DNA from: Acidobacteriota bacterium
GTDB lineage: Bacteria > Acidobacteriota > Terriglobia > Acidiferrales > UBA7541
Assembly: GCA_003223295.1 (NCBI GenBank)
Contig: QHYM01000104.1
Coordinates: 32,186 to 96,185, forward strand
DNA length: 64,000 nt
Direction: 5' to 3'
Position 1 is the stretch's first letter; every line of letters begins with the position of its first letter. The notes under the pieces are model-generated. The model made no database searches, was not told the origin of the DNA, and saw nothing but the letters and a program-made list of their open reading frames with translations. Positions 5,487 through 27,420 of this stretch are shown here, one piece after another. Made by a program: the position numbers and the translations under genes.

Positions 5487-7826
5487 ATGGTTCCCGGGAA
5501 AATGATACTTGGCAGTTTGTTCTTAGGAACCCTCGTGTACTTGTTTGGCGCAGGTTCGCTAACGTTGATGGCCGAGCAGACGAAAAGGCCCTTCACCGTG
5601 GCCGACGACATTGAAACATCGCTCTTGCTTCCGCTGGAAGATGGGCCAAACGTGCGGTTTTCGCCCGACGGAAGCTATTTCGCGGTTTATAGCGAGCGCG
5701 GGAATTTGGCCAGGAACCAAGTTGAAGATTCGCTCCGGTTCTACCGGAGCCAAGAAGTCGAGAATTTCCTGGCGCACGCGAAGGAATCGCGGCTGCCTTC
5801 CCCAGCGTGGGTGGTGAATCGCTCGGAAAAAGAGGGACCGATCATCCACAATTGGCGCTGGCTGGCAGACTCCAGTGGAGTGGCCTTTTTGCAGCCAGCG
5901 GCCAATGGAAACTATCAACTCGTCCTTGCCGATCTGCGAAAAAAGACAATCGAACCGCTGACCTCCCCCTCCGAGCAACTCGGGGAATACGCCCTGTTCG
6001 ATATTCGTGATCGGAGCCATTACGTTTACACGGCGGCTGACCCGCAAGATGCAAAGAGTGTGCCAGAGAAGCAGGAGAGAGAGAGTCGTGCGCCAGCGAT
6101 TGTGGGGACGGGGCGCCGTCTGGAAGAGCTGCTTTTTGCAGACGATCCTCTGGTAAAGAAGATAGTGACTGCCCCTAAGAGCTACCTGTGGGCGGTCGTG
6201 GGGAACAAGCGTTTCGAGGTGAAGCACGATGGCAAGGCCCTGGTTCCTCAAGCACAGCCATTGGGGCGGGGGCTGGCACTGGCACCCGATGCCCGGACCG
6301 TGGCTTTGACACTTCCCGTTCCGGAAGTGCCATCCTCTTGGGAAACGCTCTATCCGCCACCTTCGGCATCCTCCTTCTACAGGATCCATGCCGGGCAAGG
6401 ATCGGCGAGGCAGTTCGTCCGCGTTGATTTGCAAACTGGCGCGGTTCACGCGTTGACGGACGCGCCAGTTAGTATGGATGGCGGTTGGATTGCGTACGGG
6501 GGTCCTGATTGGTCAAGCAATGGCAATCAAATCGTGCTGCCAGGAACTTTTGTGAAGGCACAGGATAACGCGCCATCGCGGCCGTGTGTCGCAATTGTGA
6601 ATATACGGTCGGACGCCTCTAGTTGTGTGGAGATGATAAAGAGCAGCCATGCTGATAATCCGACCGATGCGGGTTCCCACACGGTGATCGCTGCCCGCTT
6701 TGTCGATGGAGATGAGCAGCGGGTTCTCGTGAGCTTCTGGAAGGAAAACTGGTCCACCTGGACGACGAAGTACGAGTGGAAGGGCAACCGTTGGGAAATG
6801 ATCGGGCAGAGCGAGGGAGAGGAGCAAAGCGGCCTAAGCGGCCTGCAAGTTAGGGTAAAGCAGGATCTCAACGAGGCGCCACTGCTGGTTGCTTCCATGA
6901 AAGGGAATTCACGGGTCATCTGGGATCCGAATTCGCAGCTCAAAGATATCCAGTTGGGCCAGGCCAGCGTATACACGTGGAAAGATAAGGAAGGGCGGGA
7001 GCAGAAGGGCGGACTGTACAAGCCCGCCAACGACCAGGCAGGTCGGCGCTACCCGCTGGTGCTTCAGACGCATGGATTTCTGGAAGAAGGATTCCGGCCC
7101 TCGGGGACCGGCTTTGGACCGGCGTACGCCGCAAGAGCGCTGGCCGGCGCAGGCATCGCAGTGCTGCAGCTTGGAGAACAATGTGCCGCTCCAGCGCCTA
7201 ACGAAGGGGCCTGCGCGGTCTCCGGCTATGAGGCCGCTGCAAACCAATTGGTGGCCGATGGACTCGTCGATCCCGATAAGATCGGCATCATCGGGTTCAG
7301 CCGGACTTGCTACTACGTGATGGAAGCGCTGACCACTGGTTCATCCCTCCACCTTAAAGCTGCATCGGTCACGAGCGGAGTAATGGAAACCTACTTTCAA
7401 TACATGCAGAGCCCGGAAGGATCAGAGGCGAATACCGTGATCGGCGCCGCGCCCTTCGGCGAAGGATTGCAGCAATGGTTAAAACGATCTCCGGGGTTCA
7501 ATCTCGATAAGATTACAACGCCGCTGCTGGTCAATGCAGAGGGCCGAGGTATCAACGTTCTGGAGATGTGGGAGCCTTACGCCGGACTGCATTATTTACA
7601 CAAGCCGGTGGACCTGATCGTCCTGAATACGGATGAGCACGTGCTGACGAATCCAGCGGTGCGCCTGGCATCGCAAGGTAGCCGCCGGGAATTGAAATTA
7701 TTCCCAGTCGGCATACGCGGGGATGAGGTCGTTCTGGCCGGTGCTGTTTTCATTGAGGGGGTTGACCGGGGATTTGAAAGTCGGGTGGGTTGCCTGCAAG
7801 ACATGGATGGCGATGAACGGCGTTAG
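5487..7826 (+). CDS. Atxe2-like lasso peptide isopeptidase (S9 prolyl-oligopeptidase fold), C-terminus replaced
   Basis: 779 aa. Seen: an N-terminal hydrophobic export signal (about 5-28), a beta-propeller-like region (about 60-470) and an alpha/beta-hydrolase domain (about 500-731). The nucleophile is Ser605 in GFSRTCYY, the catalytic His is His718 (TDEHVLTNP), and Glu685 (NAEG) or Glu693 is the likely acid. A Glu in the triad and the GxSR(S/T) elbow are family marks of Atxe2-type enzymes, which cut the macrolactam isopeptide bond of lasso peptides. After RLASQG (residue 731, nt 7679) the usual C-terminal DWFxFWL helix is absent; the last 48 residues are read antisense through precursor gene 7698-7847. 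Activity of the altered protein is uncertain. ATG with an AAAGAGG site. Confidence 0.85.
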   Translation: MVPGKMILGSLFLGTLVYLFGAGSLTLMAEQTKRPFTVADDIETSLLLPLEDGPNVRFSPDGSYFAVYSERGNLARNQVEDSLRFYRSQEVENFLAHAKESRLPSPAWVVNRSEKEGPIIHNWRWLADSSGVAFLQPAANGNYQLVLADLRKKTIEPLTSPSEQLGEYALFDIRDRSHYVYTAADPQDAKSVPEKQERESRAPAIVGTGRRLEELLFADDPLVKKIVTAPKSYLWAVVGNKRFEVKHDGKALVPQAQPLGRGLALAPDARTVALTLPVPEVPSSWETLYPPPSASSFYRIHAGQGSARQFVRVDLQTGAVHALTDAPVSMDGGWIAYGGPDWSSNGNQIVLPGTFVKAQDNAPSRPCVAIVNIRSDASSCVEMIKSSHADNPTDAGSHTVIAARFVDGDEQRVLVSFWKENWSTWTTKYEWKGNRWEMIGQSEGEEQSGLSGLQVRVKQDLNEAPLLVASMKGNSRVIWDPNSQLKDIQLGQASVYTWKDKEGREQKGGLYKPANDQAGRRYPLVLQTHGFLEEGFRPSGTGFGPAYAARALAGAGIAVLQLGEQCAAPAPNEGACAVSGYEAAANQLVADGLVDPDKIGIIGFSRTCYYVMEALTTGSSLHLKAASVTSGVMETYFQYMQSPEGSEANTVIGAAPFGEGLQQWLKRSPGFNLDKITTPLLVNAEGRGINVLEMWEPYAGLHYLHKPVDLIVLNTDEHVLTNPAVRLASQGSRRELKLFPVGIRGDEVVLAGAVFIEGVDRGFESRVGCLQDMDGDERR

Positions 7827-7847
7827 TTCTGGAGCTTCGTATTTCAT
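7698..7847 (-). CDS. Lasso precursor peptide, third copy (Ser1/Glu8 type)
   Basis: 49 aa, too short for most gene callers and antisense to the isopeptidase 3' end. It starts MKYEAPELTP, carrying the Y-x2-P-x-L leader motif bound by PqqD/RRE domains, and ends AYADWE like the other two copies. After THPTFK the proposed core begins S-P-V-N-P-L-N-E, so Ser1 could form an eight-residue ring with Glu8; Lys1/Glu9 is an alternative register. It is the most divergent copy: the second half of the core differs strongly and one extra residue precedes the shared ND. The ribosome site (AGGGGACGG) is weaker than in the other copies, and it lacks the hairpin that follows them. Confidence 0.78.
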   Translation of the reverse strand: MKYEAPELTPFIAIHVLQATHPTFKSPVNPLNENSTGQNDLIPAYADWE

Positions 7848-7860
7848 GGTTTCCGTCCCC

Positions 7861-7876
7861 TTTGACAATGGTCAAA
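7861..7876. promoter_or_regulatory. Palindrome upstream of the third precursor
   Basis: TTTGACAATGGTCAAA: perfect 6-bp arms around AATG, 14 bases upstream of the ATG of the precursor at 7698-7847. It could be an operator for a dimeric regulator or a small hairpin near the ribosome site. No other copy was seen in the window. Confidence 0.35.
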
Positions 7877-7914
7877 CGCACTTGTAGAGTAGAGTTCCGG
7901 CTGGCGATGAAATC

Positions 7915-7946
7915 GCTGGAGCGCCCGGTGCTTCGGGCGCCCCAGC
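7915..7946 (-). terminator. Stem-loop after precursor 1
   Basis: Arms of 13 (7915-7927 and 7934-7946) with a GTGCTT loop and one mismatch, 10 bases downstream of the stop of the precursor at 7957-8109. It is the 282-bp-offset partner of the stem-loop at 8197-8228. Stem pair 3 is T:A here and A:T there, a compensatory change that supports selection for the RNA fold. No U-run follows, so an mRNA stabiliser or attenuator is as likely as a terminator. Confidence 0.6.
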
Positions 7947-7956
7947 AGGGAGTTAC

Positions 7957-8109
7957 TTAATCCTCCCAGTCGGCGTACGCGTGGATCACGTCGTTCCGGA
8001 GACTGGCGTCCTGCAAGAAGCTGGACGGAGCCTTGAACACCGGATGCGTGGACTGTTGAATCGCATTGACGGCGGTCAATGCGGTCAGTTCAGGCGTTTC
8101 GTATTTCAT
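7957..8109 (-). CDS. Lasso precursor peptide, first copy (Ala1/Asp8 type)
   Basis: 50 aa, starting MKYETPELTALTAV with the Y-x2-P-x-L RRE-binding leader motif. The likely core follows THPVFK and begins A-P-S-S-F-L-Q-D, giving an Ala1-Asp8 eight-residue macrolactam (or Lys1-Asp9), then a 16-residue tail ending AYADWED. The usual Thr at -2 is missing: Phe and Lys stand at -2 and -1, and the nearest conserved Thr is at -6. The frame is open to 8139, but an exact AGGAGGTGA six bases before the ATG at 8109 fixes the start. The unit is a tandem duplicate of the next precursor (offset 282 bp). Confidence 0.88.
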   Translation of the reverse strand: MKYETPELTALTAVNAIQQSTHPVFKAPSSFLQDASLRNDVIHAYADWED

Positions 8110-8140
8110 GGAGTTCACCTCCTTTTCTACAGAATTCACC

Positions 8141-8178
8141 TACATTAGTTAGCTGGAACGAGAGCTCGAGCTAACTAA
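8141..8178. promoter_or_regulatory. Inverted repeat upstream of precursor 1
   Basis: TTAGTTAGCT (8145-8154) and AGCTAACTAA (8169-8178) form a perfect 10-bp inverted repeat with a 14-base spacer, about 36 bases upstream of the precursor 1 ATG on its coding strand. TACATTAG (8141-8148) overlaps it. The diverged equivalent lies before precursor 2 at the same offset. Likely an operator or promoter element. Confidence 0.5.
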
Positions 8179-8196
8179 ACTCTTGAAGAACCAATT

Positions 8197-8228
8197 GCAG
8201 GAGCGCCCGGTGCTTCGGACGCTCCTGC
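8197..8228 (-). terminator. Stem-loop after precursor 2
   Basis: Arms 8197-8209 and 8216-8228, GTGCTT loop, 12 of 13 positions paired, 10 bases downstream of the precursor 2 stop. Homologous to the stem-loop at 7915-7946, with one compensated base pair between the copies. Confidence 0.6.
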
Positions 8229-8238
8229 AGGGAGTTAA

Positions 8239-8391
8239 TTAATCCTCCCAGTCGGCATAGGCGCGCTGCACGTCGTTCATCAGGTGCGCGTCCTGCAGGA
8301 TGCTGGCAGGAGCCTTGAACACCGGATGCGTGCCTTGCTGAATGGCATTGACGGCGGTCAATGCGGTCAGTTCAGGCGTTTCGTATTTCAT
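8239..8391 (-). CDS. Lasso precursor peptide, second copy (Ala1/Asp8 type)
   Basis: 50 aa. The leader is almost the same as copy 1 (MKYETPELTALTAVNAIQQ, then G instead of S). After THPVFK the proposed core starts A-P-A-S-I-L-Q-D (Ala1-Asp8), continues A-H-L-M-N-D and ends AYADWED. It is preceded by AGGAGGTGA, and it is the precursor nearest the cyclase gene, whose stop lies 66 bases upstream. Differences from copy 1 are concentrated in the core, as expected for duplicated and diversified RiPP substrates. Confidence 0.88.
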   Translation of the reverse strand: MKYETPELTALTAVNAIQQGTHPVFKAPASILQDAHLMNDVQRAYADWED

Positions 8392-8422
8392 GGATGTCAC
8401 CTCCTTTTCTACTGGATTCAGC

Positions 8423-8461
8423 TACATTAGCCGGCTAGAACGAAAGCTCGTGGCCAGCTAA
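8423..8461. promoter_or_regulatory. Imperfect inverted repeat with TACATTAGCCGG motif upstream of precursor 2
   Basis: TTAGCCGGCT (8427-8436) faces GGCCAGCTAA (8452-8461), the diverged form of the repeat before precursor 1, and it overlaps the cyclase stop codon. The 12-mer TACATTAGCCGG (8423-8434) recurs exactly, on the other strand, at 20949-20960 before the glycosyltransferase operon. This suggests a shared regulator or promoter element. Confidence 0.45.
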
Positions 8462-10449: not shown

Positions 10450-10548
10450 GATTGTTCCTCTAGATTTCTTGTGCCGATTCTCGAAAAAAGCCGTTGCGGT
10501 CTATGGTTCAACGCTCGAGAAGCTGACTTTCTCCTTGCTCTTTGTTGA
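10450..10548. other. Spacer between the two cyclase genes with a 7-bp inverted repeat
   Basis: TTCTCGA (10478-10484) and TCGAGAA (10515-10521) form an inverted repeat. It may be a processing or regulatory site between two genes read in the same direction, but it is short enough to be chance. Confidence 0.25.
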
Positions 10549-12474: not shown

Positions 12475-12510
12475 TAGTTGGCTCCGCGATCCGCTCTGTT
12501 TAAGGATTTA

Positions 12511-12978
12511 CTAGCACCTGTCGAGGACTGCATACATTCCTGGGGTGTACGACTTGTCGTTCACGACGCGGCCATCAACCTCGACCCAGGCATGCGCCTT
12601 GAACGGCATTTGTTGAGCGCCAATCACCATTTGCGCCGGCACACCGTACTTCTTGAGCAGACACGTTGCGACGGCGGAACGCTGCAAACACAGGGCTTCC
12701 TTCCAATACCAAATGCATGCCATATCCACCGCGTGACAGACTCGTTCGACGATATTGGGCGAAGCTTGGTTCTTGCCGACGGGGTACCTGCGTACCTTGC
12801 TGTAGAGGGCTGAAAAATTCTTGCGTGCCAAGTAGAAGTCAAAGTGTATGAGCTTCACGTAGGCCTGCAGTCCAAGGGGCAAGATCACAAGGGTTTCTTC
12901 CCGACGAGGACAGGCTGGCTCTGATGCTTGGCGGCTGTCGTCATGGGAAGCAAGCATGTTGTTGTGCATGCGGGTCAT
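12511..12978 (-). CDS. Lasso peptide B2 leader peptidase (transglutaminase-like)
   Basis: 155 aa. A transglutaminase-like cysteine protease of the B2/McjB C-terminal type, which removes the leader after RRE-assisted binding. The triad is visible as Cys97 (CLQRS), His129 (KAHAWVE) and Asp141 (VVND); the 32- and 12-residue spacings are those of the McjB triad. No PqqD-like N-terminal domain is present, which fits a split B1/B2 system with the RRE encoded at 21192. The frame is open to a GTG at 12996, but the ATG at 12978 has GGAG six bases upstream and is preferred. Confidence 0.9.
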   Translation of the reverse strand: MTRMHNNMLASHDDSRQASEPACPRREETLVILPLGLQAYVKLIHFDFYLARKNFSALYSKVRRYPVGKNQASPNIVERVCHAVDMACIWYWKEALCLQRSAVATCLLKKYGVPAQMVIGAQQMPFKAHAWVEVDGRVVNDKSYTPGMYAVLDRC

Positions 12979-13093
12979 TTTTTCTCCGACCTTCACTCTT
13001 GTTGTGTTTTTGGGGCGGGCTGGAAAAACTGGGCAAAGCTAACTGAGAACGACTCTGAAGACACCGTGATGATTAGCGATGTGACCCTCCGGG

Positions 13094-13277: not shown

Positions 13278-15605
13278 CTAAAAGCTTAACGATGGAGGAG
13301 CGGCGCTTTCTTGCGTGCAGAAATTCAAGTTTGGCTGGCTTCCCATGGTGAAGACTATCGTTGCTCCATTCGCGAGATCAGCGTGGCGGAACCATACTTT
13401 GGAATACGGCTGACCGTTGAAATGGATTGTTTGAATGTACTTGTCGCCTGGAGATGTTCGTTTTGCTTCGACGATGAGCTTTTTCCCGTTGTTCAATTCT
13501 ATCTCTGCCCGGTCGAATAGCGGGGTGCCGAAAACATAGTTTCCGCTTACCGGATCAACAGGGTAGAAACCCAGCGCGCTGATGACGTACCAGGCGGACA
13601 TTTGACCACAGTCTTCATTTCCCGCGAGTCCGTCGGGTTGGTTGTCGTACATTTTTTCGAGAAGGTACCACACGCGCTCTTGCGTTTTGTAAGGAGCGCC
13701 CGCGTAAGCATAGAGATAGGCGATGTGGTGGCAAGGCTCGTTGCCATGCGCGTACTGGCCAACCATTCCCGCAATATCCGGAGGCGCATCTGGGGGAAGC
13801 TCCGAGCTTTGATTGAACAGGTCATCAAGCCGCTTCACAAAGTTTTCGTGGCCGCCAAACAATTCAATGCATCCCTTGACGTCGTGCTGGACGCCAAAAG
13901 TGGTTTCCCAGGAGTTGGCTTCCGTGTAGTCGTTCCATTTCTTGGAATGTCCCATGGCTCTCGGATCGAAAGGCTCCGCCCACTCTCCATTTTCGAGGCG
14001 CGCGCGGAGGAAGCGCTGCTTGGCGTCGAAGAGGTTGCGATAGTTCCGGGAGCGCTCGCGCAGCAGCTTGGCATCCTCCGTTGCGCCTACGGCCTGGGCA
14101 ACATGCGCGACAGCCCAGTCGTCATAGGCATACTCGACGGTCTTGCTGGCGGATTCCTCTTCTTTGTCGGCGGGGATGTAACTCAGCTTTCGATAGAATC
14201 CTAGTCCGCGATAGTCGTCCTCCATGGCCCGCTTCCTCATGAGCCGGTAGGCTTTCGCCAAATCGATTCGCGGGAATTTCTTTGTGCAAGCCTCGGCGAT
14301 AACAGGCGCGGAATGATAGCCAGTCATGCAACCTGTTTCTTTTCCTTGCAGCGGCCAGACGGGCATCCCGGCCGGACTTTCTTCCGCCATGCGGATCAGG
14401 CAATTCACGAAATCGGGAACGCGATGGCCTTGGATGAGCGTGTATAGCGGATGCGTGGCGCGATAAGTGTCCCACAGAGAGAACGTACTGTAGTTGTGGA
14501 GGCCGGAGGGCAGTGAATGAACCTTGCCGTCCATGCCACGATACTGGCCGTCGACGTCGTCGAACAGAGTTGGGGCCAGCATCATGTGGTAGAGAGCTGT
14601 ATAGAAGATTTCCTTTTGTTTGCGATTGGAGGTTGCGATTCGAATACGCGAAAGCTCCCGCTGCCAGGAGTGACGCGCCGCGAACCGGACATGATCAAAA
14701 TCCCAACCGGGGATCTCGGCCTCCAAACTCTTCAATGCCGCTTCCGCGCTTACGCCGGAGAGACCGGTTTTGACAAAGATGACCTCTCCGGGTGATGTTT
14801 GATAACGAATCACGCATTTAAGACGCCTTCCCTTGGCTTCTTTGGTCCCAGGGAACAGTTTAGCGTCGTCCGAGAAGACTACGAATTCCCTGAAAGGCTT
14901 GGAGAACTTCATCGCAAAGTAGATTTTGCGCCCACGAGCCCATCCCGCCGTGCTTCGTTCTCCAAGAATCGTATCGTTCTCTCTGGTTTTCAACTCAGCC
15001 GATAAGACGGTATCCGGAGAATTGCCGTAACAGTGAGCAAGGTCGAGGACGATGTGGCTGTCTTCATTTAGGGGAAAAGTGTACTTGTGAATGCCCGCCC
15101 GCTCCGTGGCGCTCAGTTCGGCGCGGATGTCGTAGTCCTTCAGAAGAACGGAATAATATCCGGGCTCAGCAACCTCATCGGCGTGATCGAAGCGGGAGCG
15201 GTAGCCTTCCTCGGGCTTTTCTCGCGTTCCCGGCACGATCTTTGTGCGTCCCGTGCGGGGCATGAGCAGCACATCGAGCATGTCCCCGACGCCAGTTCCG
15301 CTCAGGTGCGTGTGACTAAAGCCCATGATGGAGCCGTCGGAGCGGTGGTATCCCGAACACCAGTCCCATCCATCGTTGAACGTGTCCGGCGAGAGCTGCA
15401 CCATACCGAAGGGCACGGTAGCGCCCGGATAAGTGTGTCCATGGCCTCCTGTGCCGATGGCAATCTTGACAAACTGCGTTAGGTCGTCTCCGGAAGCGGC
15501 TTCTGGCGTCGTGTCGGCTGGCGAGAGCGCATCGAGTCTTCCGCGCAAGCTCATCTCCCCAGTGAGAGCAAGCATCGAACCAAGCAAATCCCTTCTGGTA
15601 ATCAT
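13278..15605 (-). CDS. GH92-family alpha-mannosidase-like glycosidase, exported
   Basis: 775 aa. The N-terminus MITRRDLLGSM is a Tat-type signal. GH92 marks: GTGGHGHTYPGATVPFGMV near residue 50, FSLWDTYRATHPL in the middle, and GNEDCGQMSAWYV followed by ALGFYPVDP near the C-terminus. GH92 enzymes are mostly calcium-dependent exo-alpha-mannosidases of the periplasm or cell surface. The start is only 5 bases past the GH127 stop, so the two are co-transcribed. No polysaccharide-utilisation genes adjoin; the pair sits between the glycosyltransferases and the lasso B2/cyclase genes, which suggests trimming of a glycan connected to the lasso product. The substrate is unproven. Confidence 0.88.
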   Translation of the reverse strand: MITRRDLLGSMLALTGEMSLRGRLDALSPADTTPEAASGDDLTQFVKIAIGTGGHGHTYPGATVPFGMVQLSPDTFNDGWDWCSGYHRSDGSIMGFSHTHLSGTGVGDMLDVLLMPRTGRTKIVPGTREKPEEGYRSRFDHADEVAEPGYYSVLLKDYDIRAELSATERAGIHKYTFPLNEDSHIVLDLAHCYGNSPDTVLSAELKTRENDTILGERSTAGWARGRKIYFAMKFSKPFREFVVFSDDAKLFPGTKEAKGRRLKCVIRYQTSPGEVIFVKTGLSGVSAEAALKSLEAEIPGWDFDHVRFAARHSWQRELSRIRIATSNRKQKEIFYTALYHMMLAPTLFDDVDGQYRGMDGKVHSLPSGLHNYSTFSLWDTYRATHPLYTLIQGHRVPDFVNCLIRMAEESPAGMPVWPLQGKETGCMTGYHSAPVIAEACTKKFPRIDLAKAYRLMRKRAMEDDYRGLGFYRKLSYIPADKEEESASKTVEYAYDDWAVAHVAQAVGATEDAKLLRERSRNYRNLFDAKQRFLRARLENGEWAEPFDPRAMGHSKKWNDYTEANSWETTFGVQHDVKGCIELFGGHENFVKRLDDLFNQSSELPPDAPPDIAGMVGQYAHGNEPCHHIAYLYAYAGAPYKTQERVWYLLEKMYDNQPDGLAGNEDCGQMSAWYVISALGFYPVDPVSGNYVFGTPLFDRAEIELNNGKKLIVEAKRTSPGDKYIQTIHFNGQPYSKVWFRHADLANGATIVFTMGSQPNLNFCTQESAAPPSLSF

Positions 15606-17876: not shown

Positions 17877-18797
17877 TCATCCACTTTCCTCGAGGCAGAG
17901 TTCTTGAACGGACTCCCAAGTGCCATCGGGGGCTCGGGTGAATTCTCGCAAGAGCTCTGTGTCGGAGGTGATCGCCAGTCGTGACCCATCGGGCTTATCG
18001 TGAACAAACCAGTGGCGGCCAGTGCCCGGATAATACGGTGGCCCGATAGTTCCGTCGCAATTCAGTCGCAATGATTTCTCCTGGTGCGCACCCTTCAGGC
18101 ACAATGTCTGACCCTTGAGGCGGTTGGTTTCCTCTTCGTTGATTTGTATGTGCCATCGGAAGGGAGGCTTGTAGCGGCCTTCGAAGAAATCAATGTTCGC
18201 GAATTTATGGTAAGGCTTCAGCCCGTGGGCCATGTAGAGGGGCACTTCGTAATCGAAAGTTCCGGTACCAAAGCCGACCCAGTTATAGCGGCGATCGAGC
18301 AATTCGAGTTTTAAGCCCATCCGGTGACGCGTGATATTCAGAGGAGTCTGATCGTACGGGTCGTAAGAGGGAACGCCGGGATTGGCGGTGACAAAACGTT
18401 CGGTTTCGCGGAGCCATTCTTGGTGAGACTTGCGATTGAAGATCATGAGTCCTGCATTGAAGTACTCCTGGATGGGAATGTCCCAGTCTTTGCACGCGCG
18501 GATGACCATGGGATGAAGGCGCTCCGCAACGGCGACAACTGCATCTGTTTTTGCAAAACGCGGGGGATTCCAGGGTTTGAGGCACACCATATCGGAATCG
18601 AAGAACATTACCTGGTCATGGTCAACAAGATCGAATATTCTCAGCTTCAAATGATGCGAATAAGGAAGGCCTGAACTCGCAAGGTGCTCATCTCCCAGAA
18701 TAATGGTCTTCACACCGGTCATTTTTTCGATGGCCTGCGCGGCATGCTGCGCGAGCTTTGTGTAATATTCGCCGGTCCCGATGGTTACGCCGATCAT
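17877..18797 (-). CDS. GT8-like (glycogenin-type) glycosyltransferase 2
   Basis: 306 aa. GT-A fold with the DxD metal/nucleotide-sugar motif DSD at 67-69 (FFDSDMVCLKPW) and the conserved NAGL stretch (EYFNAGLMIFN). Cytoplasmic, no signal peptide. The frame stays open far upstream, but the ATG at 18797, preceded by AGGGGG, aligns exactly with the MIG start of its paralogue. About 60% identical by eye to the preceding gene, so a tandem duplicate; it begins 37 bases past that gene's stop. Donor and acceptor are unknown; context suggests the lasso peptide or an attached glycan as acceptor. Confidence 0.85.
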   Translation of the reverse strand: MIGVTIGTGEYYTKLAQHAAQAIEKMTGVKTIILGDEHLASSGLPYSHHLKLRIFDLVDHDQVMFFDSDMVCLKPWNPPRFAKTDAVVAVAERLHPMVIRACKDWDIPIQEYFNAGLMIFNRKSHQEWLRETERFVTANPGVPSYDPYDQTPLNITRHRMGLKLELLDRRYNWVGFGTGTFDYEVPLYMAHGLKPYHKFANIDFFEGRYKPPFRWHIQINEEETNRLKGQTLCLKGAHQEKSLRLNCDGTIGPPYYPGTGRHWFVHDKPDGSRLAITSDTELLREFTRAPDGTWESVQELCLEESG

Positions 18798-18834
18798 TTG
18801 TGCCCCCTGCTTGGTCCTTGATGGCCGCGAGCGG

Positions 18835-19752
18835 CTAGGCGGCCGCCGGTTCCAGCCGCTGCACGGACTGCCAATGCTCGCCCTTGGCCAACTTGAATTC
18901 CTGCACGATTTGAGCTTCTGAGCAAAATGCCAGTGCCGGGTCGCCGGCGCGCTCGTGGACAAACCAGTACTGCGCGAAGCCGGGAAAATAGGGAGGGCCG
19001 ATGGTCCCATCAGCATTGAGATGGATTCTCATCTCTTCATCCCCCGTCTTCAGTCGCAGAGTGCGATTCTTGAGCTTGTTCATACTGTCTTCGTCAATTT
19101 TGATGTGCCAATTGAAAGGGGGCTTGTAGCGGCCTTCGAAGAAATCGATGTTCACGAACTTATTTTCGGGATGCAGGCCATGAGCCATGAAGACGGGCAC
19201 TTCACAACTGAGCCGGCTGCCTCCGAAACCAATCCAGTTGTATCTTCGATCCAGCAACTCCAGTTTGAGACCGCGGCGATGACGAGTGATGTTCAAAGCC
19301 GCCTGGTCATAGGGATCGTATTCGGCGAACTTCTGATCGGTTTGTACGAAACGTTCCGTCTCTCGAAGCCAGTCTTGATGGCACTTGCGATTTAGAATCA
19401 GAAGCCCCGCGTTGAAGTACTCATTCAAAGGGATCCGCCAATCTCGGGCGGTGCGGACATGCAGGGGACGAGCGCTCTCGGCCACGGCGACCAGCGCATC
19501 TTTCCTCGCGAGGCGTTCGGGCTTCCAGGGATTGAGGCAGACCATATCCGCGTCGAAATACAGCACGAATTCATCATCCACGAAATCGAACAGCCGCAAC
19601 TTGAGATGGTGGGGAGCAGGAAGGCCTGAGGCAGTGAAGTGTTCATCGCCGAGGATGATGGTCTTCACGCCGATTTTTTCCTCGAGGGCGCGCGCGGCGA
19701 GTTTTGCGAGGCGGCTGTAATACTCACCGGTACCAATGGTGATTCCTATCAT
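18835..19752 (-). CDS. GT8-like (glycogenin-type) glycosyltransferase 1
   Basis: 305 aa, starting MIGITIGTGEYY, with DxD motif DAD at 67-69 (YFDADMVCLNPW) and the EYFNAGLLILN stretch. The ATG at 19752 overlaps the TGA of the upstream GT4 gene (ATGA), showing translational coupling; an in-frame TTG at 19761 is a less likely start. Two near-copies in one operon suggest addition of two sugars or of one sugar at two positions. Confidence 0.86.
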   Translation of the reverse strand: MIGITIGTGEYYSRLAKLAARALEEKIGVKTIILGDEHFTASGLPAPHHLKLRLFDFVDDEFVLYFDADMVCLNPWKPERLARKDALVAVAESARPLHVRTARDWRIPLNEYFNAGLLILNRKCHQDWLRETERFVQTDQKFAEYDPYDQAALNITRHRRGLKLELLDRRYNWIGFGGSRLSCEVPVFMAHGLHPENKFVNIDFFEGRYKPPFNWHIKIDEDSMNKLKNRTLRLKTGDEEMRIHLNADGTIGPPYFPGFAQYWFVHERAGDPALAFCSEAQIVQEFKLAKGEHWQSVQRLEPAAA

Positions 19753-20882
19753 GTTCTCCAATCCCTCGCGACCGCCTGTGAAAAGCGGTCAGAATTGACA
19801 ATTTCCATGATTCGTTTTTCCAGGATGGCGTTTACAGAATTACGGTTGAACTTCTGAATGTCGTTCGAGGCATTGCGGATTCTTCGAAGAATCTCAGGGG
19901 CGCCTCGCTCCTGATAGAGCAAGAGCATTTTTTGTTGCAAGTCGTCCAGGGAAGGGTAGGCCCACTTCATACTCGAATCGAAAAGATAGAAACAATCTTC
20001 CGGCTTGATGTGATCTTCGGCGAAGTCGAGCAGCAAGGAATTGTCCGCATTCATGAACTCGCGGTTCCCCGAGTAGCCAGTTGCGATCGTGGGTTTTTGA
20101 AAAAGCATTGCATCGGACAGGGTCAGCCCCCAACCCTCCGAATGGTGCGGGCTGACGTACGCGTCGGCGGTCGCATAAAGGGCGTTCACCTGGGTTTCAT
20201 TCAGGTTTTCTCGCAGGACGATGATGCCATCGGTCACCAGAGCTCCAGCATCGTCTTGAGGACCAGCCTTGATGATGAGTCTCGCTTTCGGCATGGTTGA
20301 CCGCTGGTTCCGAAAAGCAGTCATGAGAGCGGTTGTGTTCTTTCGCAAGTCCCATAGTTTTGTCACCATGAAGAAATAGAAATTGCCTGGATCGTAGGAA
20401 ATGGCGCGCCCAATGTATTCGCCGTCGGCTTCCGAATAACTCGTATCGCGCTCGACGACGTGCGGCACATAGATGACTCGAGGGTGGTGCCTTGCGAAGA
20501 TTTCCAAGCAGTATTGCGAACATGTCCAAATTTCCTGAACCTGGCGGATCGCTTCCCGATACGAGATGGGCAATTCACTGGCTTCCCAGACGCAATACCC
20601 GACGACATACTTCTTTCTCAAGACAGGATAAGTTTCAAAAAGAGAGGCGAAGGTGTGTGGTTCGAAATGAAGAACCACGATGTCTGCGAGATCAATTTCC
20701 TTCACTACGTTGCACTGGCTTCGGATAATGTTGCGGTAAACTCGCGCTACTCTTGCATGGCTTGGATATCGGCCACAGCCATAGGAAACCTTCACATTCC
20801 TCAGGGTCGACTTCGAGCCGGCAATTTCTTTTGTAATTTCTTGGCCAACGGCTTCCATAGTATTCCCATCCCGACGAGTCAC
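19749..20882 (-). CDS. GT4-like glycosyltransferase
   Basis: 377 aa from the GTG at 20882; an ATG at 20858 (MEAVGQ) with a GGGA site is an equally good start. GT-B fold: the Rossmann-like C-domain has the SPHHSEGWGLTLSDAM donor site, an E-x7-E motif with the second Glu changed to Asp. No signal peptide. First gene of the GT4-GT8-GT8 operon, coupled to the first GT8 by a 4-base overlap. The TACATTAGCCGG site upstream links it to the precursor promoters. Confidence 0.85.
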   Translation of the reverse strand: MTRRDGNTMEAVGQEITKEIAGSKSTLRNVKVSYGCGRYPSHARVARVYRNIIRSQCNVVKEIDLADIVVLHFEPHTFASLFETYPVLRKKYVVGYCVWEASELPISYREAIRQVQEIWTCSQYCLEIFARHHPRVIYVPHVVERDTSYSEADGEYIGRAISYDPGNFYFFMVTKLWDLRKNTTALMTAFRNQRSTMPKARLIIKAGPQDDAGALVTDGIIVLRENLNETQVNALYATADAYVSPHHSEGWGLTLSDAMLFQKPTIATGYSGNREFMNADNSLLLDFAEDHIKPEDCFYLFDSSMKWAYPSLDDLQQKMLLLYQERGAPEILRRIRNASNDIQKFNRNSVNAILEKRIMEIVNSDRFSQAVARDWRT

Positions 20883-20948
20883 GTTGCACTTTACGCTTTG
20901 GTTTTTGCTGGGCGGGCTATCAGCCGTTCAGGGCAACGGACTTCTCGT

Positions 20949-21191: not shown

Positions 21192-21449
21192 TTGCAGGTG
21201 TCAAGCGTAGCTCGCGTGGCCAAAACTTCCGATGGAAAGGCGGTCATGGAGGTTGCTGGCCGGCCCGCTTTTGAATTGAATCCCGTAGCTTTGAGTATTT
21301 GGACGAAGCTCACATCCGGCCATTCGCTCCCGGAGATCAGTTCGCAGATCGCTGCGGAATTTGGCGCTCCGGAAGGTGTGACGGCAAGGGATGTTCAGCG
21401 CTTCGTCAAACAATTGAAGGACCATCTTCTCGTTTACGACGACAACTGA
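21192..21449 (+). CDS. Lasso B1 protein: PqqD-like RiPP recognition element (RRE)
   Basis: 85 aa. Stand-alone PqqD-family winged helix: beta strands (KAVMEVAGRPAFEL), the LNPVALSIWTKLTSGHSLPEI helix-turn, and a C-terminal helix ending FVKQLKDHLLVYD. In split lasso systems the B1 RRE binds the leader Y-x2-P-x-L motif and presents it to B2 and the cyclase. TTG start with GGAGAG upstream. It stands alone on the plus strand, 8 kb from its B2 partner, which is atypical for lasso clusters. Confidence 0.85.
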   Translation: MQVSSVARVAKTSDGKAVMEVAGRPAFELNPVALSIWTKLTSGHSLPEISSQIAAEFGAPEGVTARDVQRFVKQLKDHLLVYDDN

Positions 21450-21503
21450 GGGAATGAGGCCGCAAGAGGTGACGGCTAGTTCTTATCTCGTTTCTTCAAG
21501 AGC

Positions 21504-22073
21504 TTAGACGGGCGAAGAGTCAGGCCGTTTTGAGGCGTGACCAAGCCTTGTGTAGGGATTCTCTTGTGCAGCTACCCATTCGGAGTTCCCTCCGCCCTGC
21601 ATTTGAAAGCGCTTGGGCCGTTTGCCGAATGTGTTTTGAAAGCAACGCGAAAATGCGGACGTAAAACTGTAGCCGAGAACTCTGGCCGCTTCGTCGACAT
21701 TAAGGTTCTTTGACTCTCTGAGGAGCTTTTCTGCCGTCTTCATTCTGACTCGCCGGGCATATGCGCGCATGGTGACGCGGTATAGCTTCTTGAATTGCCT
21801 GCTGACCAGCGAAAGACTTATCTGGAATTTCTCACATTCTTTGGCCGGGCTGCACGACAGACTGCCGCCTGATTCGTCAATCAGTTGCCGAATTCTTGCC
21901 GCTACCTGCCTAGACCTACACACTGCTTTTTCCAGGATGAGATCCGTTGCCCAGCCCAATAAGAACAATTCAGGACCATGGTAGGAAGGTTGCGACCGTG
22001 AAACGCTGTAAGTGTCCGCAGCAGAGGACTCGTACAATGAGGAAACGGGCTTAGGTTTCTCTGTAGCTTTCAT
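21504..22073 (-). CDS. AraC-family regulator without a large sensory domain
   Basis: 189 aa. The C-terminal double helix-turn-helix of AraC type spans about 70-160 (ISLSLVSRQFKKLYRVTMRAYARR, then ARVLGYSFTSAFSRCFQNTFG). The N-terminal 60 residues contain no recognisable ligand domain, so another protein or intracellular cofactor may supply the signal. It faces the GT4/wHTH gene across a spacer carrying the 33-bp element shared with the B2 promoter, so it is the likely cluster regulator. Confidence 0.82.
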   Translation of the reverse strand: MKATEKPKPVSSLYESSAADTYSVSRSQPSYHGPELFLLGWATDLILEKAVCRSRQVAARIRQLIDESGGSLSCSPAKECEKFQISLSLVSRQFKKLYRVTMRAYARRVRMKTAEKLLRESKNLNVDEAARVLGYSFTSAFSRCFQNTFGKRPKRFQMQGGGNSEWVAAQENPYTRLGHASKRPDSSPV

Positions 22074-22436: not shown

Positions 22437-24125
22437 GTGTTTGATGTTTTGAAGGTACTTCGAATTCCAGGAATGCACCAGATGAAGGCGCTGTATATCG
22501 ATCAAGTTGCCGGAAACCCCGAGTCTCCTCATACCAAGAACGGTCAGACAATCAAGGGCGCTGGTGTTTTTGAATGGAACCTGCTTTCCGCACTGCTGGA
22601 ACATGGAACCTACGATGCCTACTTCGCACCCGGATTAACCGAAGAGAAGAGACAAGCACTGGCGCAAGAAGGTTTGAGCGCGGATAGCGTCAGGCGTCTG
22701 GTCCCTGTACCTCTTTGGGGACCGCCACCCATCAAGACCGAGGATAAAGTCGTCCTGTTGACGGCGGGACGGTTCCTGAATGCCCTGGCAGGCATTCGTC
22801 AAAAACTGAAGCAATTCAACGCACCGGTGTGCGGATTCGTGCACTCGATAAACTCGCCGCGCATTGCATTTGCTTTGCTGCAGCAGTGTTTTGCCGGTCT
22901 TTCGGGGGCCGATCTCTTGCTTTGTTCCAGCCGGGCAGGAATGAAAACCATCGACACGTACATTAACGAGATCAACGGGTTCTTACCTTTAGAACTGCAC
23001 TATCCAGCGCGCCGGGCTCTCGTTCCTTTAGGGGTCAAGCTTCCATCAACGAAGCAGACAACCGGTGGGACTCTTAGGCAGAAGTTCAGTCTAGAAACGG
23101 ATGCTTGCATCGCCCTGTACTTCGGCCGTTTGTCCCAGACCAGTAAGTGTGATCTTGGGCCCCTTCTTGTTGCTTTTTCCCAGTTGCTGCGGAAAGGGAA
23201 GAGTCTCTACCTGATTATTGCGGGGGACGACACGCAAGCCAAGGAAGCTCCACGCCTGCAGGCCCTTGCCAGAGAGCTAGACTGCAATGAAAGCCTTATG
23301 GTTTGGGCTAATCCGTCGGCTGAAGACAAACATCTCCTCTATTCCGAGGCAGACTTTTTTGTGTCCCCGAGCGACAACATCCAAGAAACGTTTGGGCTGA
23401 CGGTTGCCGAGGCAATGGCTTATGGGTTGCCAGCGGTTGTATCGGACTGGAATGGTTATCGAGACTTGGTGAAAGACGGGCAAAATGGATTCTTGATCCC
23501 AACCGCCTTCCCATCCACCGTGGAAAGCCTTCGTCTTTGTGATTGCACCATGTCCATGTTAGAGGAAGATTTGCTGGCCCAGTCCACGACGGTCGACGTC
23601 TTGGCATTGTCCGAAAGGATGGAGCAACTTGCGGAGAATCCAGAATTGCGCGCGCACATGGGAAAAACCGCCAGACAGTTTGTGGAAGACACTTGTAGCT
23701 GGCGGGCCGTGGTGAGACGCTACGAGGAAATCTGGGAAGAGTCTCTGCATTTTGCGAGCAGCCCCGCTTCGCGCCCGAGGAAATCCGGCCAGTTATTTGA
23801 CATTTCGCTGGAGAAGTGTTTTGGGCACTACGCAACTGTAAAGCGCGGCGCGGAGCAGAGATGCTTCATAACACGCGAAGGTCGGGAATGGCTAAAGCAA
23901 CCCGGGCGTTTGTATTTTTTATGCCGCTTGTCAACTGCTTTGAATCCCCAAGAATTCACGCATATATTGCGGCACATTGCGGATTGTCCTGGTTTCTCGA
24001 TCAAAGAAATTGTTGCGTCTCTGTCAAACGGTGCAGCCCTTACAGCGGCGAACGCACATTGGATCTTGGCTCGTCTTTTCAAATATGGGCTTGTGACAGA
24101 CCAACAGGATAGTCCTAAGACATGA
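22437..24125 (+). CDS. GT4-like glycosyltransferase with a C-terminal winged-helix/RRE-like domain
   Basis: 562 aa from the GTG at 22437 (AAAGGTG site); in-frame ATGs at 22473 and 22482 are alternatives. GT-B fold, with the donor-site E-x7-E motif intact (ETFGLTVAEAMAYGLP, about residue 320). The last 130 or so residues are not part of a GT4 enzyme: a short segment, then a helical domain (LSTALNPQEF, then GFSIKEIVASLSNG, ending ILARLFKYGLV) whose pattern resembles PqqD/winged-helix domains such as the cluster B1 protein. If it is an RRE, it would bring the transferase to the precursor leader; this is inference. It is divergent from the AraC-type regulator and convergent with the M16 gene. Confidence 0.8.
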   Translation: MFDVLKVLRIPGMHQMKALYIDQVAGNPESPHTKNGQTIKGAGVFEWNLLSALLEHGTYDAYFAPGLTEEKRQALAQEGLSADSVRRLVPVPLWGPPPIKTEDKVVLLTAGRFLNALAGIRQKLKQFNAPVCGFVHSINSPRIAFALLQQCFAGLSGADLLLCSSRAGMKTIDTYINEINGFLPLELHYPARRALVPLGVKLPSTKQTTGGTLRQKFSLETDACIALYFGRLSQTSKCDLGPLLVAFSQLLRKGKSLYLIIAGDDTQAKEAPRLQALARELDCNESLMVWANPSAEDKHLLYSEADFFVSPSDNIQETFGLTVAEAMAYGLPAVVSDWNGYRDLVKDGQNGFLIPTAFPSTVESLRLCDCTMSMLEEDLLAQSTTVDVLALSERMEQLAENPELRAHMGKTARQFVEDTCSWRAVVRRYEEIWEESLHFASSPASRPRKSGQLFDISLEKCFGHYATVKRGAEQRCFITREGREWLKQPGRLYFLCRLSTALNPQEFTHILRHIADCPGFSIKEIVASLSNGAALTAANAHWILARLFKYGLVTDQQDSPKT

Positions 24126-24219
24126 CCTTGACTTCTCTTTGATCCTTCCAGGTCATCGCTTTTTTCCCGGTTTTGGCCCGAGCCCTCTTTTGCGGTTCGC
24201 CTGGCGCGGTTCGGCTCCC

Positions 24220-25530
24220 CTACGCCACTTCCTTAGCGGCCGCCTTGGCTGGCGCACGAAAAACTATAGCGCGATTCTCATTTCGCAAATATTTTTGCGC
24301 CACGGTCATCGTTTGTTCCCGCGTTACTGCCAGAAATTCATCCAAAATAGTGTTTACTAACTGCGGTTGGTCATCGAAAAGCGCGAAACAAGCCAGCAAA
24401 TGCATCAGCCCATACTTCGGCATGTAGGGGCCACCATCGTCCAGGCGCGCATAAAAATCTGCTTGCCATTTCACTAACAACTGGTTCAATTCGTCCGTGG
24501 TCAGGCCAACCTCTTGAACGCCGCGAATGACCGCGTCAAATGCTAGTAGTGCAGATTCACTGGGATACTCCGGCCGGAACCGAAGGCATGTAATCAACTG
24601 ATTCGGACCATTATAGCCGAAGAAATCGTCGATTCCGCCCCAAGCTTCTAAGGCAATTTGCCTTTTTTCCACCAACTCGCGGTGAATTCTCCCGGCTCTT
24701 CCATAGTGGAGCTCCTGATCGAGTAGCGCCATTGCGCACCAATCGCTGGTCCGCCTCTCAGGCATCAAATATCCAACGGCCAAGGACGGCAACGCTCCAA
24801 TTTTCTCTTCAATGTATCCGCGCCGTTCTTGGGTTTGTTCGGGCTCGCTTGGATCGAAGGAGGGAAGAGCCGTTCCAGCGGGAATGCTGCCAAAGTATTG
24901 CTCCGCCAAAGCGAGGCCGTCTTGCGGCTTCACGTCGCCAAGCATCAGCAAAACAGCATTATTGGGCACATAATAGGTTTTGAAAAATGTTTCCAGATCT
25001 TTTAAGTCGATGGCGTCGAGATCCGCGAAATCGCCATAGCACGTGTGCGCATTCGCCCAATTGCGAAACGCCATGGCAGGCATGTCAAGTATGGGAAAGC
25101 CGCCATAGGGTTGGTTCAGCACATTGCGACGAACTTCTTCTTTGATAACATCGCGCTGAGTTTTCAGGTTCCCTTCGTTAAGCTTGAGAGCTCGCATGCG
25201 GTCTGCTTCCAGCCAGAGCACGCGGCAGAGCGCGTTTGAGGGCACGGATTCAAAATAATTGGTCCAGTCGCAGCCCGTTGAACCATTAGACCGCCCTCCG
25301 CTCGCGTGGATTAGCTTGAGGTGTTGCTCTCTTGGTGCGTTCGCAGAGCCTTGAAACATCATGTGTTCGAGCAAGTGCGCAAAGCCGCCGCGGCCTGGGG
25401 GGTCCATGCGGAAACCAACCTTGTAGTACACGCCCACAGTCGTCACTGGTGCGCTGTGATCCGGTGCGATGACGACTTTTAAACCGTTCGGCAGCGTTAT
25501 GTATTCAATCGTAATTTGGAGTCGTTTCAA
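24220..25530 (-). CDS. M16-family zinc metallopeptidase (PqqF/processing-peptidase-like)
   Basis: 436 aa. Inverted zinc motif H52-L-L-E-H56 (FAHLLEHMMF) with the third ligand Glu131/132 about 75 residues later (VIKEEVRR), a complete single-unit M16B-type protein. No signal peptide; TTG start. It lies 111 bases downstream of the lasso exporter in the same direction. M16 peptidases process RiPP-like substrates in other systems (PqqF), so it could degrade released leaders or trim the long conserved tail, but a housekeeping role is possible. Confidence 0.83.
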   Translation of the reverse strand: MKRLQITIEYITLPNGLKVVIAPDHSAPVTTVGVYYKVGFRMDPPGRGGFAHLLEHMMFQGSANAPREQHLKLIHASGGRSNGSTGCDWTNYFESVPSNALCRVLWLEADRMRALKLNEGNLKTQRDVIKEEVRRNVLNQPYGGFPILDMPAMAFRNWANAHTCYGDFADLDAIDLKDLETFFKTYYVPNNAVLLMLGDVKPQDGLALAEQYFGSIPAGTALPSFDPSEPEQTQERRGYIEEKIGALPSLAVGYLMPERRTSDWCAMALLDQELHYGRAGRIHRELVEKRQIALEAWGGIDDFFGYNGPNQLITCLRFRPEYPSESALLAFDAVIRGVQEVGLTTDELNQLLVKWQADFYARLDDGGPYMPKYGLMHLLACFALFDDQPQLVNTILDEFLAVTREQTMTVAQKYLRNENRAIVFRAPAKAAAKEVA

Positions 25531-25641
25531 TCGTTGCTCTGCCTTCCAGACGGCATTGTTCTTCTCGGAAAGGACTCAATTGAGTGGAACAGCACAGCAG
25601 GGCATGGGACGGCACTAAGTTTCGCTGGGCACGGACTTTCA

Positions 25642-27420
25642 TTAATTACTCTTTGGGAGTTGGGCAACGGATTCCGTATTCAGAAGCGCCGTTGGCGCAC
25701 TATGCAAATGCGTATAGAGGCCGCCGGTGCGAATCAATTGGTCGTGCGTTCCCTGTTCCTGGATCACTCCTCGGTTGAGAACAACAATTCGGTCCACCCA
25801 TTTAAGCGCCGCAATCCGGTGCGATACGAACACGATGGTTTGGCTGGGAAAATGGCGCGCCAAATTCATAAACACCCGTCGTTCGGACGGTGCGTCGAGG
25901 GCGGAGGTAGATTCATCAAGCAGCAAAATCGAGGGTTTGTGGAGCACGGCCCGGGCCAGCGCTACGCGTTGCTTTTCACCGCCAGACAGCGCGTTCCCTC
26001 TTGGGCCCACGGGTGTGTCCCAGCCTTGCGGCAACCGCCGAAACAGCTCTTCTAGATCGGCAATCTCGACTGCTGTATGAAGTTCTCCAGTCGTCGCGGA
26101 GGGGTTTCCCAATAGAATATTTTCCTTCAGTGTGCGGTCGAAAAGCACGGCATCCTGCAATAAATAGCAAACCCTTGTTCGCAGGCTTGCCAGCCGGATC
26201 TTACGAACGTCAATCCCGTCGATATAAACCGTGCCTCCACTCGCGTCATAAAGCCGGGCGATCAGCTTTGCGATGGTGCTTTTTCCGCTCCCGCTTATGC
26301 CTACCAACGCCACTTTCTCGCCGGGCCCGAGTTTGAGTTGAATCCCGTCCAGCACAGGAACGCCATCCCGATAACAGAAATCAACTCTCTCCATTTCCAC
26401 ATAGCCTCGGAGCGGGGAAGGGAAGGTGATGGCGTCGGGCCGTTCAGGCACGCTGGGAGTCCTTTCCATAACCTCCAGAATTCTGCGGATATTGGTCCCT
26501 AAGCGATTCAACTGGGAATAAATGTCCACGGCGGCACGCAAGGGATCAAATAAGCGCCCCATGTAACTATAAAAGGCGACCACGCCGCCGATCGTCAGAG
26601 CCCCAATAAACACCTGGTAGCCACCATAACCAAGGATCGCGATCGTGCCCGTGGCGATGATGGCCATGTAGCAGGAGCTGAACAGGACCTCGACTAGTTC
26701 CCGATGATTTACTGCTTTCATGCGCTCCATCGCCCACTTTTGGAATGTTTGCGATTGGTTTTTCTCTTGATGAAGGAGCTGAACCTGAATGACGGAAGTA
26801 AGATGCTCCTGAAGAAAACTGCTCTCTTTGGCAGCTTTCTCCTGGGCCAGATCCGAGGCGCGGCGCAGAGGCTTTTCAAACTTCTTTCGGAAAACAAAGA
26901 AAAGAGGCATCAAGGGCAGAACAAGGCTGGTGAGCTTAAAATCAAGGGTGAACATGGTGCCCATGACGAAGATGGAGTTGAATGCGGTTTGTAGTGCATA
27001 GGGCACCAGGTTCGATCCTCCTTCGGCTACCTGGTCCACGTCCTGTTCCAGGCGATAGAGTCTTTCGCCAACCGGCGTTGAATCATGGTAGTCGGCGGAA
27101 AGACGGTTCATTTGCTCCAGGATATTAAGGCGCATCTGGAAGACAAGATTCTGAACGGTTCGAAAATTCACGAGCTGGGCCAGCGTGAAAAAGCCCAGCC
27201 GAAAAATGTAAAGCCCAAAGAATCCTAGGGCAGTGAGAAGAAGGAGACGGAAGTCCTTCTTGGGAAGGACATAGTCAATCAGCCATTTGAGAAGCAAGGG
27301 ATCGAGAAGAAACATGGCGCTGCTTAGAACCACGAGCAGCACGCCCAGTGAGTAGGACGGGAAAAGGGGCCGCATTTGGCGAAGGAACCAGCGCGCCTGC
27401 GCTTTGAGCGTCGAACTCAC
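25642..27420 (-). CDS. ABC exporter, fused permease-ATPase (lasso LasD-like)
   Basis: 592 aa. Six-helix exporter domain (about 20-310) followed by an ATPase domain (about 340-575) with Walker A GISGSGKS (374-381), signature LSGGEKQR (about 479-486) and Walker B ILLLDES (about 498-504). No C39 peptidase domain, as expected where B2 removes the leader. A homodimeric half-transporter suited to exporting the mature lasso peptide to the periplasm. It is followed by the M16 gene. Confidence 0.87.
   Translation of the reverse strand: MSSTLKAQARWFLRQMRPLFPSYSLGVLLVVLSSAMFLLDPLLLKWLIDYVLPKKDFRLLLLTALGFFGLYIFRLGFFTLAQLVNFRTVQNLVFQMRLNILEQMNRLSADYHDSTPVGERLYRLEQDVDQVAEGGSNLVPYALQTAFNSIFVMGTMFTLDFKLTSLVLPLMPLFFVFRKKFEKPLRRASDLAQEKAAKESSFLQEHLTSVIQVQLLHQEKNQSQTFQKWAMERMKAVNHRELVEVLFSSCYMAIIATGTIAILGYGGYQVFIGALTIGGVVAFYSYMGRLFDPLRAAVDIYSQLNRLGTNIRRILEVMERTPSVPERPDAITFPSPLRGYVEMERVDFCYRDGVPVLDGIQLKLGPGEKVALVGISGSGKSTIAKLIARLYDASGGTVYIDGIDVRKIRLASLRTRVCYLLQDAVLFDRTLKENILLGNPSATTGELHTAVEIADLEELFRRLPQGWDTPVGPRGNALSGGEKQRVALARAVLHKPSILLLDESTSALDAPSERRVFMNLARHFPSQTIVFVSHRIAALKWVDRIVVLNRGVIQEQGTHDQLIRTGGLYTHLHSAPTALLNTESVAQLPKSN

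Follow-up and report, generated by a model that had tools for sequence, protein, structure and literature searches.

Gene content of the locus

The window, the whole 64,000-nucleotide stretch of DNA analysed here, lies on a 96-kb contig of an Acidobacteriota genome (6.0 Mb, 95.2% complete) and holds a real, conserved lasso-type locus, the product of which, to judge from the sequence, is probably closed through a lysine and probably not a class II lasso peptide as defined. An earlier note on this DNA had described a class II lasso system in an acidobacterial context at positions 5487 to 27420. Every gene named there is present, in an order that recurs in relatives, and the context is borne out by the close relatives, which are named Acidobacteria metagenome-assembled genomes (MAGs). 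The genes do lie within the extent given, but the locus starts further back, with a TonB/Oar-like receptor, a zinc-finger protein and an extracytoplasmic function (ECF) sigma factor. Two features were absent from the note, namely that three genes between B2 and PqqD encode glycosyltransferases and that no window core has an acid at position 7-9.

On the minus strand lie the genes for the precursors A3 (7698..7847), A2 (7957..8109) and A1 (8239..8391), the cyclase paralogue C1 (8458..10449), the cyclase C2 (10549..12474), which is the predicted ring-closing enzyme, and the B2 leader peptidase (12511..12996), which scores 75 bits with model NF033537 (cut-off 33). A stand-alone PqqD/B1 leader-binding protein is encoded on the plus strand at 21192..21449 (PF05402, 43.9 bits); the lasso PqqD model NF033530 gives it 30 bits against a cut-off of 70. 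Both B2 and PqqD had been recognized in the earlier note, as had the exporter, which is an ATP-binding cassette (ABC) transporter (25642..27420, minus strand; PF00664, PF00005). None of the NCBIfam models describes the window precursors; their sole match, RecG at E 0.099, is a chance hit, and an Rfam scan of the window gave no match.

Precursor peptides and predicted leader cleavage

All three precursors carry the Y-x2-P-x-L leader that the earlier note had pointed out, and A1 and A2, which have ribosome-binding sites (AAGGAGGTGA), lie inside a 258-nt tandem duplication with 85% identity. Residue -2 is Ile in A1 and A2 and Leu in A3, Thr in none of them. Relatives were collected in two non-redundant sets, to which all counts out of 97 and 80 refer. 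For the window-type set, a profile of 22 precursors was searched against 5.8 billion proteins and the best 120 of 657 matches were listed; with one further precursor and the three peptides of the window this made 124 for analysis, of which 97 remained once sequences at least 60% alike in their variable part had been removed. The window peptides were all three removed at this step and so stand outside the 97. The kinase-type set came from a profile of ten precursors (best 120 of 300 matches listed, 80 kept). Kinase-type loci (numbered L028, L059, L060, L081-L086, L092 and L094) encode a phosphotransferase of the APH family, a single cyclase, an isopeptidase and a TonB receptor, and in many cases a prolyl oligopeptidase as well; L082 and L083 have an identical core.

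Among the 97 window-type relatives, the Tyr-to-Gln stretch of the leader counts 17 residues in 87, 16 in nine and 14 in one; Ile or Val stands at position -2 in 96/97 window-type and 79/80 kinase-type sequences. In Duan et al. (2023, PMC10368454), Y-x2-P-x-L is placed at -17 to -12, and Ile/Val(-2) lasso precursors are reported from Bradymonadales and Acidobacteriaceae as an exception to Thr(-2). A B2-homology search gave 19 places, of which 14 were extended, two lie in the window's own genome and three (G167 twice and G379:C14) were left out. In four B2-homologous loci (L088, L090, L091 and L093), the canonical precursors place Gly immediately behind I/V(-2)-x(-1), with an acid at position 8 or 9, which argues that the window leaders, too, would be cut after Gln(-1). 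Read in this way, core residue 1 is Gly or Ser in 71/80 kinase-type sequences, against 24% at position 2, and Gly, Ser, Thr or Ala in 83/97 window-type sequences, against 63% at position 2. Given this cut, an acid at core position 7-9 is found in 0/3 window cores, compared with 13/13 canonical precursors when these, too, are read with the -17 geometry. With this position empty in all three cores and no Thr at -2, the class II assignment of the earlier note is probably not right, while its lasso-type machinery stands, the cyclases matching the lasso cyclase model best.

Spacing of lysine and acid in the core

Each window core has a single Lys followed by an acid eight residues later: Lys7 and Glu15 in A3, where the core follows LQ, and Lys8 and Asp16 in A1 and A2, where it follows IQ. 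Among the relatives, a Lys lies 6-8 residues before an acid in 97/97 window-type and 80/80 kinase-type sequences (177/177 distinct sequences, from the best 120 of 657 and of 300 matches). When the cores were shuffled 2000 times, this arrangement arose on average in 19.4 of the 97 window-type cores (standard deviation 3.7, maximum 35) and in 16.8 of the 80 kinase-type cores (standard deviation 3.5, maximum 33); the next best residue at the same spacing is Ser in the former (43/97) and Gly in the latter (38/80). Counted by the first hit, spacings of 6, 7 and 8 occur 10, 42 and 45 times in window-type and 57, 21 and 2 times in kinase-type sequences. Lys is found anywhere from core position 3 to 11 and the acid from 9 to 19 while the spacing stays at 6-8; the pair therefore moves together relative to the leader, and, if residues are counted from Lys, its spacing matches the 7-9 residues of the lasso ring rule. 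Among canonical precursors, 5/13 also show a Lys at this spacing ahead of an acid. Nine loci found through B2 have isopeptidase and TonB matches (L081-L086, L090, L092 and L094); the rule holds in eight of them, the ninth, L090, being canonical.

Window-type precursors share a tail, N[DE]-x3-5-YxDWE, in which Asn comes first in 93/97 and Asp or Glu next in 97/97, the YxDWE end being a requirement of the selecting script. No N[DE] of this kind precedes the tail Tyr in the 79 kinase-type precursors kept by the filter (79, not 80). C1 is present in all seven window-type loci compared below, and L028, L059 and L060 have a single cyclase by tblastn; tail and C1 thus go together.

The two cyclases

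Among NCBIfam models, both cyclases match the lasso cyclase model NF033535 best, at 240 bits for C1 and 286 bits for C2, each under its cut-off of 525; the asparagine synthase model gives them 143 and 168 bits. The SGG(M/R)DS motifs of the earlier note are present as SGGMDS in C1 and SGGRDS in C2. In a tree of 32 cyclases, 24 from Lys-type loci fall on one side of a branch with support of 98 in the Shimodaira-Hasegawa approximate likelihood ratio test (SH-aLRT), and the C1 (SH-aLRT 100) and C2 (99) clades represent one duplication inside that side. An acid occupies C2 positions 287, 296 and 375 in 18/18 non-C1 Lys-type cyclases; in the eight canonical cyclases there is one at 287 in a single case (Arg in six), and none at 296 or 375. 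Since the side-chain amine of lysine is protonated at neutral pH, a lysine nucleophile would benefit from a general base close to the reaction centre, and these acids are candidates for that role.

C2 has intact motifs and keeps those conserved across the 32 aligned cyclases. C1 reads GGEI for GGDE, with replacement of the second Mg-binding Asp (position 374), a role known from asparagine and beta-lactam synthetases. This Asp is lost in 5/6 aligned C1 sequences, and a seventh, from L054 and outside the alignment, reads GGGE at the site. An apparent C1 frameshift in L027/L054 was rejected as not real, as the frame shift falls across a 51-base run of N. C1, conserved and mostly without the second Mg-binding Asp, is predicted to be a partner or a specialized cyclase acting with the tail.

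Conservation of the locus and its sugar genes

Searching named genomes with C2 brought up six loci. Five are in Acidobacteria MAGs (L025-L029, three of them labelled gp2), and one (L030) has a distant deltaproteobacterial cyclase of 23% identity. The precursor profile matched in 9/95 genomes when searched across the order, and a phylum-wide search for precursors matched in the window's own genome only (1/396 genomes). Seven loci showing the PqqD region were compared (the window, L025, L026, L027/L054, L055, L057 and L058; L061 repeats L025 and L056 covers the right-hand part only). The recurring order, in whole or in part, is ABC-GT4b-PqqD-GT4a-GT8a-GT8b-(GH127-GH92)-B2-C2-C1-precursors-isopeptidase-TonB-zinc-finger protein. 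GT4b is present in 7/7 of these loci, GT4a-GT8a-GT8b in 5/7 (not in L057 and L058, in which the isopeptidase match is only 27%) and GH127-GH92 in 2/7 (the window and L054).

Since this gene order recurs in related acidobacteria, the four glycosyltransferases belong to the locus. Three lie on the minus strand: the GT8-like GT8b (17877..18794, with the open frame running to 19016; PF01501, 29.9 bits, cut-off 24.3) and GT8a (18835..19761; 22.7 bits, just under that cut-off), and GT4a (19749..20882; PF13692, 41.3 bits). GT4b (22437..24125, plus strand; PF00534, 96.4 bits) has an extra C-terminal domain. The glycosidases GH92 (13278..15605; PF07971, 595 bits) and GH127 (15611..17665; PF07944, 66.6 bits), both on the minus strand, stand at the same place in L027/L054 only. 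The dispersal over about 22 kb that had struck the earlier note as unusual is thereby largely explained, the glycosyltransferases being syntenic and the same two glycosidases occurring in one relative.

In 3/7 loci PqqD is fused to a second domain (three copies in L025, at 1676-5582; L026, 1374-2663; L055, 11923-13206). One of the L025 fusions matches GT47 exostosin-type structures in the PDB at E 5e-10, and its PqqD part matches TbiB1, a lasso B1 protein, at E 1.3e-4; the other fused copies match its GT47 part at 67-76%. Because PqqD is fused to GT47 in these relatives, sugar transfer is plausibly leader-guided. From its gene content, the product is probably decorated with sugars, which GH92 and GH127 perhaps strip. 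GT4b was folded to seek a leader-binding domain in its C-terminal extension; the mean predicted local distance difference test score (pLDDT) was 53, with 25-43 over residues 451-560.

Isopeptidase and predicted export and import

The isopeptidase gene (5487..7826, plus strand) encodes an Atxe2-type homologue, as the earlier note had proposed, with 137 bits in NF033523 (cut-off 400). At E 0.001 its sequence matches in the PDB only 5jrk/5jrl and 5txc/5txe, which are entries of lasso isopeptidases. Other, weaker S9 matches occur in the same genome. The 3' end of the gene overlaps precursor A3 on the opposite strand at 7698-7826.

Next to it lie the predicted importer, a TonB/Oar-like outer-membrane receptor (1756..5118, plus strand; OMP_b-brl_4, 444.9 bits, and CarboxypepD_reg), which is syntenic in relatives, and a predicted zinc-finger, anti-sigma-like protein (18..1328, plus strand; a weak zf-HC2 match of 18.5 bits, cut-off 22.2), the gene of which is kept beside the TonB gene in relatives. 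An ECF sigma factor gene ends at window position 15 (L005:7515-8201; Sigma70_r2, 58.9 bits). The succession of sigma factor, zinc-finger-like protein, TonB receptor and isopeptidase in a row suggests that the receptor may re-import, and the isopeptidase linearize, a secreted product; export would fall to the ABC protein, whose gene adjoins GT4b in L054, L057 and L058.

Proposed ring closure and alternatives

We moderately favour a reading of the locus in which C2 would close a ring between the lysine side-chain amine and the Asp or Glu eight residues on, after B2 has removed the leader behind Ile/Leu(-2)-Gln(-1). PqqD would bind the leader at Y-x2-P-x-L, the glycosyltransferases would add sugars, probably on the leader-bearing peptide, and B2 would cut after Gln; C2 would then adenylate the acid, to be attacked by the Lys epsilon-amine. 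The outcome would be a ring of nine residues (7-9 among the relatives), leaving 6-7 residues as a free arm on the N-terminal side, and the N[DE]-x3-5-YxDWE segment would serve as loop and tail. Lysine as the nucleophile and threading of the product are both predicted. More tentatively, and in our estimate a little short of an even chance, an acidobacterial clade of lasso-type cyclases may have switched its nucleophile to an internal Lys, giving N-terminally extended, two-armed peptides from hundreds of metagenomic precursors, in which the duplicated cyclase and the N[DE]...YxDWE tail would add a bond or guide threading and sugars would be leader-guided. The estimate stays slightly below even because a canonical ring is open to two of the loci found through B2 as well, and because the leaders in the window fall one residue below the canonical 17.

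Several observations weigh against lysine-side-chain closure and its extension to the clade. The search profiles contained Lys, so that selection bias is possible, and the rule rests on the best 120 of 657 and the best 120 of 300 matches. L094 and L084 would equally allow a canonical ring, G1-D9 or S1-D8, 15/97 and 12/80 relatives do have an acid at core 7-9, and the Tyr-to-Gln distance is 16, not 17, in all three window precursors. The cyclases, the isopeptidase and PqqD score below the cut-offs of the lasso models. The cyclase tree is a quick maximum-likelihood tree of 32 rows with long branches and SH-aLRT support, without bootstrap, and the Glu at 375 may be an ancestral asparagine synthetase trait and hence no necessary mark of Lys use. 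The window has no GT47 match, and the PqqD-GT47 fusion is absent there. Finally, the sequence would fit the Lys side chain and Lys as residue 1 alike.

This last point leads to the main rival, which we regard as unlikely: Lys would be residue 1 of an ordinary lasso core, exposed by B2 or by B2 and a trimming peptidase, and its alpha-amine would close a ring of 7-9. A spacing of 6-8 is what the lasso ring rule gives if Lys is residue 1, and peptidases are encoded nearby (an M16 peptidase in the window and prolyl oligopeptidases in kinase-type loci). Yet the stretch between leader motif and Lys varies by eight residues while Ile/Val(-2)-Gln(-1) keeps its canonical position, Gly and Ser are enriched right after Gln, no conservation is seen at Lys-1 and Lys-2, and an alpha-amine would not demand Lys in 177/177. 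Cleavage after Gln is the best supported, and residue 1 is then mostly Gly, Ser or Thr, which would also agree with an alpha-amine closing a larger ring onto the same acid, Lys serving for binding or folding; the ring would, however, have to span 9-19 residues while the Lys-acid spacing stays fixed, and lasso rings are described with the acid at 7-9 (PMC10368454), making this improbable. We give even less credence to a cut after Lys, in which Lys would end the leader and the residue behind it would close a ring of 6-8. The window residues after Lys (Ala, Ala and Ser, with the acid at position 8) do look canonical, but residue 1 would be Pro in 9/97 and 8/80 sequences, elsewhere also Arg, Asp or Lys, and six-residue rings would be needed in 57/80 kinase-type sequences by the first hit. 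A core start after Lys in the window (A1...D8) had been considered and was dropped once the larger sets showed Pro, Arg and Asp after Lys and six-residue rings. Least probable of all is that no lasso-type cyclization takes place, C2 and C1 forming another amide or the cluster decaying. The loss of the conserved Asp in 5/6 C1 sequences and the sub-threshold cyclase scores would agree with it; against it stand the retention in C2 of the motifs conserved across the 32 aligned cyclases, the intact genes in conserved order and the Lys-acid rule.

Relation to known systems

Class II lasso systems with a TonB receptor and an isopeptidase are known as the astexin, sphingopyxin and benenodin type. The window shares with them PqqD/B1, B2, a cyclase homologue, a homologue of Atxe2-type isopeptidases, TonB receptor and Y-x2-P-x-L leader, and differs in having no acid at core 7-9, Ile or Leu at -2, a single Lys at the predicted ring position 1, two cyclases and glycosyltransferases. 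Amides between Lys and Asp or Glu side chains occur among ribosomally synthesized and post-translationally modified peptides in graspetides such as microviridins, where ATP-grasp ligases make them; the candidate enzymes here, in contrast, belong to the asparagine-synthetase/lasso-cyclase family. Glycosylated lasso peptides were reportedly described by Sun et al. in 2025. In pseudomycoidin (PMC9266682), a sugar is placed on a lasso peptide by a nucleotidyltransferase homologue; a sugar on a lasso-type peptide is likewise predicted here from the genes, which in contrast are GT4 and GT8, with PqqD-GT47 fusions in relatives. The precursors of Duan et al. resemble ours in Ile/Val(-2) and the -17 geometry, but Gly1-Asp8 is assigned in Bradymonas and the accessible passages mention no core Lys (PMC10368454). 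Lariocidin B also has a Lys side-chain amide (here predicted), but as a second bond, from Lys2 to the C-terminal Arg17, its lasso ring being closed by the Ser1 alpha-amine onto Asp8 (PMC11451635), and metanodin has Asn1, not Lys (PMC12670498). In a literature survey that reached few subscription journals, no report came up of a ring closed through a Lys side chain.

Ring closure by the N-terminal amine defines the lasso class and underlies core calling. If an internal Lys serves instead, core prediction for such clusters is wrong and both peptide ends would be free for engineering, and lasso-type cyclases would count as candidate catalysts for lactams between two side chains. Leader-guided glycosylation could be approached through the PqqD-GT47 fusion of the relatives. 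Besides genes for assembly, the locus contains genes predicted to act in disassembly (isopeptidase, GH92 and GH127).

Other loci in the genome and neighbouring genes

The same genome has a kinase-type locus, L006 (C355:1-9671), with ABC, PqqD, APH kinase, prolyl oligopeptidase, B2 and cyclase genes, which ends at a contig edge inside the cyclase; its B2 is 78% identical to that of the window. The APH kinase and prolyl oligopeptidase of L006 found no match in ten stretches of window-type loci, and the window locus itself gives the kinase no match. L006 also encodes a protein of 451 aa that combines a PqqD domain with a helix-turn-helix of AraC type. At L008 5777-5905 (C31) and L009 5461-5613 (C419), each next to a cyclase homologue, lie two lasso precursors of canonical appearance, with Thr(-2) and acids at core 8 and 9. 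In total, the lasso cyclase model has 31 matches on 15 contigs of this genome, none above the curated cut-off, and part of these will be other amidotransferases.

Within the window, an AraC-type regulator (21504..22073, minus strand; HTH_18, 58.4 bits) lies between PqqD and GT4b, and an M16 peptidase (24220..25530, minus strand; PF05193, PF00675), a piece of which is also in L055, is of unsure membership. A further AraC-type regulator (27880..28320, minus strand; HTH_18, 73.9 bits) adjoins the ABC gene in L057, L058 and L006. Several MacB-like permease genes follow at 28695-45049 (28695-31646 on the minus strand and four plus-strand matches), and a further weak TonB/Oar-like receptor match, split in two, lies at 57820-61545 (minus strand).

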